This document shows, one piece after another, positions 12,001 through 18,000 of a stretch of DNA of 64,000 nt. Source of the DNA: Meghimatium bilineatum. Its lineage: Eukaryota; Mollusca; Gastropoda; Stylommatophora; Philomycidae. How positions within the stretch are numbered: the first letter of the stretch is position 1; each line of letters starts with the position of its first letter. The stretch covers positions 33,292,156 through 33,356,155 of the forward strand of contig CM067315.1 in assembly GCA_034231615.1 (NCBI GenBank), written 5' to 3'. Position numbers and translations under genes: made by a program. The notes under the pieces are model-generated. The model was not told the origin of the DNA and made no database searches. It saw nothing but the letters and a program-made list of their open reading frames with translations.

Positions 12001-15000
12001 TGCAATAGAATCCGGCTGAAGTACCTAACATCAACAGCAGCTGTCGGGTATAATAAAAGCCAAAGTAGTTTATTGTTTCACACCCTCTGTTTTGTATTCA
12101 TATTTGTTCCCCTTTGTTACATTATATTTTGTTTCACATTAAACTGTTTCGCTAAATTTGTATGTCTCTTAACAGGAAATTGCATATATTCTTGGTAACC
12201 AATATCCTATGTTTTCAATGTTGTTCTTTATTAGTGTATAATAAAACATTGAAAATATAATAGATGTTGTTGATGAACTCGATACACTAAAATAATATCG
12301 TCTTATCAAATTATCATACTACAGAAGCGAACATCCACAGAAGGATAGTGCTACAGTGGACGCCATCCCACTGTCGCTTCCCAGGAAATTAAAAGACGTT
12401 CATGCTAGTAAAAGATGCTGCAACATAGTAACAAAAAGACCAAGAAATCACTCACCATGGACCCTCATCAAAGCTATTAGATAAGTCAACCACCCAAAAG
12501 ACAAATATCACTTTCATGAGAGAGCTCAGCAAGTTATGATCTTCCGCATCAGGACAGGGAACAACAGACTAAACAGCCACTTAAATAGACTAAGACTGGT
12601 TTCATCACGTCAGTGTTCATGTGGACAAGTAGCACAGACCGCGAAACATACTCTGCAAGATCACGTATAAAGTTTTATAGAGTGGAGTATGTTGTTCTTA
12701 GTTTTGATCATGTATGAAGGCTTAGTTTGATCAAATATGAAATCCTGGTTTGATATCCTATGTAGCAGTGGCGTATCCTGGGGTCTGAAAGAGAGCATGC
12801 AACTTTTAAAAAATGATAATTTTCTACTCACCCAGTTATTTGAAGTTCAGTTCTATTCTGCGGCTCTTTCTGCTAAAGTCCTCTGTTACTTTGTTATAAA
12901 AGTCATCATTGCCTTTCATCTCTACAAGAAGGTCTTTTTCAATTGACATCATTGATAGAGCAGAAAGACGACATTGCCCCTGCGAGTTCCTTATGACATT
13001 TTTAATGCGTTTTAATGCAGAAAACGAACGTTCCACTGAAGACGACGATGCAGGAATTGTCAATATTAATTCACAAAGTTTATGAAGTTCTGGAAGACCA
13101 CTGTGAAGTCCTTTGTTCAAAAGAAATCTATGAATGTCGGACACATACATTTCTTTAAAGTGTTGGGATACAAACATTGCCTTTAATTCAGATCTCAGTC
13201 TTACTATATCAAAATATTTCCCATATATTCCGTTCAGTGTGGAAAACTGCTCTTGTGGAAACTCTTTTGAAAATGTTAAAAATTTCTTACAGTCAAAAAT
13301 TTCAAGAAATGACAAATCTGACAGAGAATCAAACCGGCTTTGTAACTGGCAGTTTACCGTATCATGAATTTCACAATACAACCTCCTGTACTCATCCTTT
13401 GGGATAACTGAGGATTCTCGCTTTCTTCTCTTTGTTGGAGGACCACACTTGAACTCTATTTTGGCCCAAATTGAATCAAAGCCAGTATTGCGCATTGTGA
13501 ACAATTTTTCTTTTAACTCAACTATCTCTCTAGAGCAATATGTGATGTCCAGTGAATTTGATTGAAGGATATTAAATACAACATCTGTCATCGAAAAAAT
13601 ATCGGTGAACACAGCCAAAAGGAAATTGAATTCAAAATCCCCTAGGTTTGACAGAAATCCAACTGCTTCATTAATTGTTGCGTGATCCCAATCACCAGGT
13701 CGTTCCAAAATGCATTCAAATAAATCTATTAATTCATTATGATATTCAGAAACAGTCTGTACTAAACGACTGGAATAATTCCATCTGGTTGCCGCCAGCT
13801 TGGGAAACCGTTTTTTCACTATGGTGTCCAACAAATGTGTTCTCTTTGCTGAATGACTAAAAAATGAAGCAAAACTGCTAAGTGACGAAAAGAATATTCT
13901 ACACGCACTTATGCATGAGACAGCTTGAGACAGTACTAAATTAAGTTTGTGTGCATAGCAGTGGATGAATAATGCCTGAGAAACAACTTCCCTAACTCTC
14001 GTCTGCACACCACTCAATTGGCCTGCCATTACTGCTGCACCATCATAAGTTTGTGCTACTAGTTTTTCTCTACAGTCAAATTGATCAAGACTGTCTAAAG
14101 CCAGTTTTGACAATGCTTGTGCAGATCTGTCAGAGCTAACGTCATGAAAGCCAATAAATCTTTCGTAAATATTACCATTATAAACATATCTAAAAACAAC
14201 TGACAGCTGAGACAAGTTTGTTGCATCAGAGGTCTCGTCAATTAGGATGGCGACAAATTTGGACGATTGAATCTGAAATTTCACTTCTGCAGTTATTACA
14301 TTGTTCACACTTTGGATAAGATCGTTCTGTATTAATGGGGAAAGACCCGTGAATATATTTGACGTCATGAGATGCTGATGCAATTTTTCATCAAACTCTG
14401 CTAATAAATTTAAAGCTTCAATGTAGTTCCCACGATTAGTGGAATCAATCCCCTCGCTGTGACCACGAAAAGCTAATTCTTGTTTTCCTAAAAAACAAGT
14501 AACAGCAATTAACCTCTTAAGGATTTCTCGAAAATTTTTAACTGTTTCATTGTGTTTCATAATACTTTCTTTTTTCTGAAAATCCAATTGAACATCAATT
14601 CTGCTGGAGCCAAACACTTGTAACGCTATCCAAGCGTGAATATGACTTTCAGACTTTTCGTGTCTTGAAATAGCGTTATGTAAATTATTTAGATCAGAAT
14701 ACCCGCGTTGTCTGCTGTTCCAAGGCGAAGTGTCATTTACAAACAATATACATGGCCAGCAAAATAACTTACATAATGATTCCGAACCACAAAGCCAAAC
14801 GACTTTCTTATATAAATCATTGTTAAATGAACGGACACATTTTGTTCCTTCTCGTTTCAAACTGCTTAACGCAGGAATCGGTCTGCCCATTTTTACCAAG
14901 TCCAATTTTTCATTAAATGTTCGCGATTGAAACGGTCGCTCAAATAAATCTACAACAACATCATTAATAGAATCAGCCATAATAACAAATTGAAATTGAA

Positions 15001-18000
15001 ACCACATCGCTGTGTAAATGTGCGTGTGTGTTGAGTAAGATCACGTGACGTGTACCAAAAGTGACCGGAAATGGCTTACTAAACAAGTGTGTGTGTATGC
15101 AATCAAGATTATAATTGCTTGCATTGTTATCATTAGTTTAACATTCAAATAAAAGTACTAGAACATAGAAATTGCACTGTTTCACACCAGTAAATAAATG
15201 TTCATCAATCAATTTATTATTTGCCAGTGCTAAATTGTTATAATAGTGATTGAATCATAAAATGTATTAATTTTTTTTTCATCGCAAGCTTACTCTGGAG
15301 ACAAGGTTATAAAAAAACACACAGTATATCACTGCGCTTATATGTAAAGGGACTATTTTAACGAAAGCAAATTCAAAATTGCTTTACTGTGGCCACTAAA
15401 ACTTTCATATGTGTTGCCAGCACTAATTTTCGGAAAAATTCAGATTTGTGAGAAAAATATTTTAAAATATATTTTTGAGCAATGCTGCAAGGGCTAAGTT
15501 TGGATGGGGGATAGATCACTGACTGGTTTATCATTTTCTCAACTCTTGAAGGCATGCAATGCTTGCCTTGCTTATGCTTAGTATACGCCACTGCTATGTA
15601 GGTGTAGTTTTATCAAGTATGAAGGCTTTGTTTGGTTTTACTCGTAAGCCTTTGGTGTAAGCCCACAAATTGTCAACACTGTTTTATGAAATTATTTAAC
15701 CCCCCCCCCCCCCTTTTTATCCGTTGTCTATGACTTATCAAGAATCGAGATCCACCTGTTTAATTATGTCCACTAATGTGTAACCCCCCCCCCCTCCAAC
15801 ATACGTTAGCAGAAGTGCATAAAACCATTTTTTTCACATTTATTTCCAAATTTGCACAATGTAACTGGTGCACACACAAAAAAAACAACCTTTTGTGAAC
15901 GTCTACTTGTGTTAAACCCAACCTCAGTACTAACAACTGTCAACCTTCTTCAAAGTCTGATCTCATAATAACAAGAAATAACAGTTTAATTGCTAGAATG
16001 ACAACATGAAGCTATGACGTCAAACACAACTATTTGAACTTACACCAGCAGGGACGTTGTAGCCACTTATTTCAAGATCGCTGGTCAGATTTCGACTTGT
16101 GGAGTACACGATTGGATACAGTCGTAGCGTTTCTTTTACTACTGCTTTGACATACGGCAGCTTGCTAAGCTGCTCTGAAGAGATTGTTCCATTATTGTCT
16201 AACTTTGCTTGTTGAATTTCCTGGTAAAGTTTTTCTTGTACCTCTGGATGTTTGGCCAGGTTGTACAGACACCACGTTGTTGCAGTCGATGTCTGGTTTA
16301 GATTTGTTTTTTAAAAAAGGATGAAAATGTTATGGTGAAAATAATATTGCAAGCTGGTAATTGATGTTAATGTTTATGATGATGATGGTAAAAATAATGA
16401 AATTATATCTTTAGCTTTGAGCAGGTAGCTCTTGGCAAACCTTAGAATTTCTGACCACGGGTCCTCCCCAGTTTAGTATTGGTTTTCTGGCTGTTTGGTT
16501 GCTCATTCAGCGGTTCATGCCTTTTGACCCAGGCATTATATTGCTGGGAAGTCTGTGGATTTTCGGCCTACCTCGGGCTAGAACCAGAGAATAACTATCA
16601 GGAAGAAAGGTTTCTACCTATGCACTGATCCGAATCACTGTAGCCAAGATAGGGTTCACTGTGCTCATTCCCCGCCACCAATTGACTACTGGTTATGCCG
16701 AACTTCTCTATTGCTCCAGTCATGCAACCAAATGTTCAAGTCAAAAGGATTGTCACTTCCTGAGTCACTGTGCCTCTATGATGGGCCTCAGAATAGGAAA
16801 AAACAGTGCAATCAGTTTCCTCCTCCCCTGTTATGCGCAGTACATCTTTAGATTCCTCCCAACCACAGAGGGTGCATACATACATACACATAACAAAAAC
16901 ACATTAAAACAACAAAATAAAAGCTTGATAAGCATAATTGTATAGATGACGTGCCATGAAGCTTCTCTAAGAAGATAACCTCAATATAACGGCATGTCAT
17001 CTACTAAGGTTTTCTGTTGCATGTGTGGTTTGACTAGTGGGCCATTGGTGAGACCCACAGTCGCAACCCCATGTGTATTTGTTTTCTCAAAGGCATGATT
17101 GTGTTAGGGGTGTTTATGGATGCATGCTTAGTCCCCGAAGGGAAATATTCCACGGCGGTAGTATCCCATGATCTTGATGTCCTGCCAGGATCGCAGCATT
17201 TACTTCATGGTAAACTAGCTCATCATTCTTCTATCAGATATGTTCAATTATCTGTTCAATTATCTGTTCAATTATCTTATCTACAGTAATGGTACATCTA
17301 GCATTCTCCACATTCTAGCAACTTCCTGAATTAATCTAAACAGGAGAATAAAACATCGCCCTCATTAACCATGTACTCTGTACAGAGATAAAAACCTCAA
17401 CATACTATATGTTTCCTCTCATTTAGATTCAGCGTTGTTTTTAAGTTGAGTTTCGTCCTGATGAAGGCTTTTAGTCAAAACGTGGTTGTGTTTGTGTTAA
17501 GTTATTAGTATTTAGTTTGTAATATGGTAACACTTTAGTGTATCTATTTACGTGTATACTTATATATGAGTCTGTGTCACATAATGAGTTTATCGTCTGC
17601 AGACTTTCATTGGGGTAAGAGGAATTTATCGTATGCCTCTCAGTGCCTGTTCTATTGTGTCTTTAATAACAATTCAGTTATGATGATAAGCAAAAGGGAT
17701 GATATCACATATTCCTGCCTTAATATTAATCATTAGAATAATAAGACCCATACCAAGTCGGGGTAGTCGGGGTGCTACAATGGAGACATCAGCACAAAAA
17801 ATTCTCCAAACACCTAAAAAAAAAGTGCTGATGCAATTTATGGACAACCCCCACATGATTACGAGCAGAACCAAAACCAAGATAAATTATGCTCTTTATG
17901 TTATGTATGAGGATTGTTTTATTCATCGCTTCTTCTCCACCTACCCTCCTCGACAGTTCTTTACAATCCATAATGAGTCGTGTCTCGTTACAACTGTACA

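Follow-up and report, generated by a model that had tools for sequence, protein, structure and literature searches.

BuT2 of Drosophila buzzatii, which its authors' tree places in the Tip group, is described in PMC3942097 as a hAT transposon of 2,775 bp with 12-bp terminal inverted repeats (TIRs), 8-bp target site duplications (TSDs) and a five-exon gene for a 643-aa transposase carrying both DUF4371 and hATC; the same authors state that the target preference of Tip elements had not been investigated. Tip100, from the plant Ipomoea purpurea, has been used as a gene-transfer tool in medaka, where it leaves an 8-bp TSD on integration, and PMC12511174 describes a 3.8-kb copy, an 808-aa transposase and an 11-bp TIR, CAGGGGCGGAG. 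hAT-Tip100 is also among the repeats listed for cephalopods in PMC8967140. For Hermes of Musca domestica, PMC10368747 reports short TIRs, an N-terminal zinc finger of the BED type and a preference for 8-bp targets of the form nTnnnnAn, and the target reported for Buster elements is nnnTAnnn (PMC3517528, PMC3499496). Proteins with DUF4371, a domain classed as RNase H-like, are described as carrying an N-terminal ZnF_TTF followed by the RNase H-like domain, with Dimer_Tnp_hAT among the domains that are added to this arrangement (PMC3985635).

We analyzed a stretch of 64,000 nucleotides from contig CM067315.1 of the gastropod Meghimatium bilineatum, here called the window, which contains a 2828-bp hAT element at positions 12766-15593. 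We regard it as highly probable that the element is an autonomous hAT transposon, complete in structure and probably young. It would most likely belong to the Tip group and have entered an intron of a P450 gene of the animal mitochondrial clan by cut-and-paste at the target CTATGTAG. The 8-bp TSD that characterizes the hAT superfamily is present as two identical copies of CTATGTAG, one on the left (12758-12765) and one on the right (15594-15601). The left TIR (CAGTGGCGTAT; 12766-12776, plus strand), on the 3' side of the transposase gene, is complementary at 11 of 11 bases to the right TIR on the 5' side of that gene (15583-15593, minus strand), and two of the next three bases inward also pair. 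The first-pass annotation had called perfect 8-bp duplications and 11-bp terminal repeats, and both were recovered nearly to the base. The length of the TIR and that of the element fall within the ranges of 10-25 bp and 2.5-5 kb given for hAT elements in PMC3942097.

Within the window this is the sole instance of an exact 8-bp TSD combined with an exact 11-bp TIR at a spacing of 200-6000 bp, and none of 40 first-order Markov shuffles contained such a structure at any place. No second copy or further terminus of the element was found within the window. The GC content of the element is 0.357, compared with 0.370 for the window. Inside the TIRs, GCATGC and AAAATGATAA are repeated at both ends in the same order, with a score that was reached by 85 of 2000 shuffles, a weak likeness between the two ends that is only suggestive of subterminal repeats. 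A repeat of 27-31 bp, in three copies that are 78-90% alike, is common to both insertion flanks (12699-12752 and 15605-15634), and the element therefore landed in a short local repeat.

The transposase gene occupies the minus strand as a single open frame (12836-15007) without internal stops, encoding 723 aa if translation starts at the ATG at 15007 and 714 aa if it starts at the one at 14980; the shorter product is the uninterrupted 714-residue one that had been proposed. Measured from stop to stop the frame comprises 734 aa, compared with 192 aa for the longest open stretch found in 200 shuffles of the element. Two Pfam domains above their curated cut-offs were detected in it, DUF4371 at aa 137-324 (14009-14572, minus strand; E = 2.8e-22) and the C-terminal hAT dimerisation region, Dimer_Tnp_hAT (PF05699), at aa 626-683 (12932-13105, minus strand; E = 5.7e-8; 32.9 bits against a curated cut-off of 21.4). 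A zinc finger, a catalytic core and a dimerisation domain had all been listed by the first-pass annotation; of these the dimerisation domain is borne out by Pfam, and the finger and the DDE residues are motifs read by eye. The putative finger, of the TTF type (C-x3-C-x2-C ... H-x5-H), would lie at aa 69-113 (14642-14776, minus strand), where LCKLFCWPC...HEKSESH was recognized by eye and positioned by script, and no zinc-finger model of Pfam matched the transposase at E<=1. The putative DDE RNase H-like core would include D248 and D313, which are spanned by the DUF4371 match, and E650, which is spanned by the dimerisation match; these are candidate catalytic residues picked by motif, with the script giving only their positions. 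A phmmer search found no PDB chain similar to the transposase at E<=0.1, and a single-sequence structure model was too poor for fold comparison (mean pLDDT 36.6, every residue being below 70).

The combination of DUF4371 and hATC in one transposase makes it likely that the element belongs to the Tip group as a BuT2-like member, although PMC3942097, in its description of BuT2, does not state that this pair is exclusive to Tip. The element further resembles BuT2, as described there, in its length of about 2.8 kb, its 8-bp TSD and its short TIRs, and differs from it in having a single open frame, 714 aa and 11-bp TIRs in place of five exons, 643 aa and 12-bp TIRs. Compared by eye, its TIR agrees with that of Tip100 given in PMC12511174 at 8 of 11 positions, and both elements have an 8-bp TSD; the plant element, whose activity has been demonstrated, differs in its larger copy and transposase. 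As DUF4371 is given as absent in plants by PMC3985635, a link between the two elements would be founded on the TIR and on the place of BuT2 in the Tip tree, not on DUF4371.

Hermes, as reported in PMC10368747, shares with this element the 8-bp nTnnnnAn target and the short TIRs; its N-terminal zinc finger is of the BED type, and the putative N-terminal finger here would be TTF-like. The TSD CTATGTAG fits the nTnnnnAn preference, although a single site is no proof of a preference, and it departs from the Buster target nnnTAnnn (PMC3517528, PMC3499496) by having TG at positions 4-5, again at one site only. In viral contigs, a protein search for relatives returned four stretches that fitted a pattern, none of them confirmed, and a search with one degenerate DNA pattern returned none. 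Among the contigs of prokaryotic genomes 25 stretches fitted a pattern, again with none confirmed. These blanks are expected for an animal transposon and are no evidence of rarity.

As the first-pass annotation had stated, the element lies in a P450 intron in the sense of the host gene, between the K-helix and heme exons, with Pfam p450 matches on the same strand at either side of it. The upstream exon, which extends from the K-helix (ETLR) to VPAG (16044-16292, minus strand), corresponds to positions 278-361 of the p450 profile, matched at 16041-16292, and has its GT donor behind it at 16043. The downstream exon (11287-11463, minus strand), identified by profile positions 361-415 and by its translation, contains the heme motif WGHGARMCLG and is preceded by an AG acceptor at 11464; its own end was placed by eye near 11295, the Pfam match to 11287 overshooting slightly. 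Both exons have open frames and are joined in phase 0 (...NVPAG|THVQANLYG...) across the borders GGT|GTAAGT and TTGCAG|ACG. The intron measures 4580 bp, or 1744 bp once the element and one TSD are subtracted.

Exons of the host gene were sought by Pfam on the minus strand, in three frames of 1-22498 and one frame of 22001-34000. The heme motif has W in place of the usual F, and a strict heme pattern scan fails on this real heme exon, whose motif begins with W. A heme-like FPFGSRQCTG near 5356 on the minus strand was set aside as a chance occurrence, with no P450 match in three minus frames of 1-9000 and no clear exon by eye. Because the two best PDB matches of the K-helix exon, among the best 60 of 240 matches, were an ancestral CYP11A1 and CYP24A1, and because an open frame with an upstream P450 coding stretch (20892-21266, minus strand) matches the CYP24A1 chain 3k9v over its aa 34-100 at 3.4e-7, the host gene looks like a P450 of the mitochondrial clan, which is an animal type.

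To bound the age of the insertion we used the unbroken 2142-base frame. Under nine different pairings of assumed transition bias and indel rate, the 95% upper bound on its divergence was 0.9-1.9%; this is a model bound and not a date, and it assumes that the copy was intact at landing and has been neutral since. Three other places in the window share 70-79% identity with the left flank (12366-12660). The copy is probably young, because its frame is intact, its TSD and TIRs are perfect and it is adjoined by older repeat debris, 21-30% diverged from its kin in the window; the recent insertion claimed earlier is thus supported indirectly, by these features.

Under the preferred reading of a young autonomous hAT, the transposase would bind the ends of the element, its DDE RNase H-like core would cut, and the transposase would join the ends across 8 bp of target. 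The copy would have entered CTATGTAG by cut-and-paste, probably recently, it may have kept the capacity to produce transposase, and the P450 gene presumably tolerates it as intron sequence. On the other hand, a copy that looks complete and inserted recently may nevertheless be dead, through a missense change, silencing or the lack of a working promoter, and to this we assign slightly less than an even chance. Within the element there is no TATAWAW upstream of the transposase ATG and no AATAAA or ATTAAA after its stop in the transposase sense, and therefore no standard promoter or polyadenylation motif was recognized, which favors a dead copy; the intact frame, the perfect TIRs and TSD and the presence of the putative D248, D313 and E650 argue the other way.

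The long open frame could also be that of a domesticated transposase gene held by selection for a host function, as no other frame listed in the window exceeds 243 codons and as hAT transposases are known to have been domesticated, the ZBED genes being the case described in PMC3606216. The intact TIRs and TSD, however, mark a mobile unit and not a stranded gene, and we consider domestication exceedingly improbable.

With regard to the host message, the first-pass annotation had suggested that the P450 could be disrupted through read-through or exonisation. Scored with generic splice-site matrices, a GTGAGT donor-like motif situated four bases behind the transposase stop (first base 12831; score 9.4) ranks second among the donors of the intron. 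The highest-scoring acceptor-like motif in the intron also lies inside the element (12778; score 9.8), with more at 14457 and 12785. The 12831 donor and the 12778 acceptor outscore the splice sites of the host (donor 6.4, acceptor 4.1) under the same matrices, and downstream of the element the intron contains two AATAAA motifs; these observations would favor a change of the P450 message by the insertion, either through exonisation or through premature termination in the sense direction. However, equally strong splice motifs are about as common elsewhere, with 24 donors of at least 9.4 and 130 acceptors of at least 8.0 per 128 kb over both strands (roughly a donor every 5 kb and an acceptor every kb), and neither AATAAA motif belongs to the element. 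An altered message is therefore unlikely in our judgment, and exonisation was not accepted: with motifs near background in the window and with flanking exons that are open and in phase 0, the suggested disruption is speculation.

The find is an ordinary one, a complete-looking hAT of a well-known superfamily in an intron, and no observation made here challenges existing knowledge of hAT elements. That it represents a currently active Tip-group hAT and possible transposition tool, with this copy segregating and changing the splicing of a mitochondrial-type P450, is very improbable. If active, the element would naturally supply this animal with new insertions, and its transposase would be a native one to try as a gene-transfer tool; if inactive, it would be a routine intronic insertion of a young DNA transposon.

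The repeat beside the element belongs to one family of diverged fragments, located at 9919-10167, 12366-12660, 50286-50570 and 63181-63438, of which the other three show the 70-79% identity to the copy next to the hAT; by eye these fragments may represent a LINE tail. Pfam gave no family for the frames 63003-63449 and 50367-50834, which overlap repeat fragments. The window has 21 listed frames of at least 120 codons, and of the 20 besides the transposase we tested ten, all of at least 130 codons, by Pfam: two are partial reverse-transcriptase frames and eight matched nothing at E<=0.01. Both reverse-transcriptase frames are truncated, one at 43438-44166 on the plus strand (RVT_1, 3.2e-8, above the curated cut-off) and the other at 55808-56539 on the minus strand (RVT_1, 0.0011, below it). 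The earlier statement that nearly every other element here is broken agrees with the shortness of the frames and with the partial RVT_1 fit of two out of ten, and is unproved element by element. A weak RVT_1 match (0.0009, below the curated cut-off) was also seen at 3246-3458 on the minus strand, in a frame read through stops. On the plus strand, a tandem repeat at 61966-62668 is open in three frames and encodes repeated MAIPIQTYGNSYPDIWQFLSRH-like peptides, and a long simple repeat at 29073-29653 is likewise open in three frames (LSIYLSIY...).
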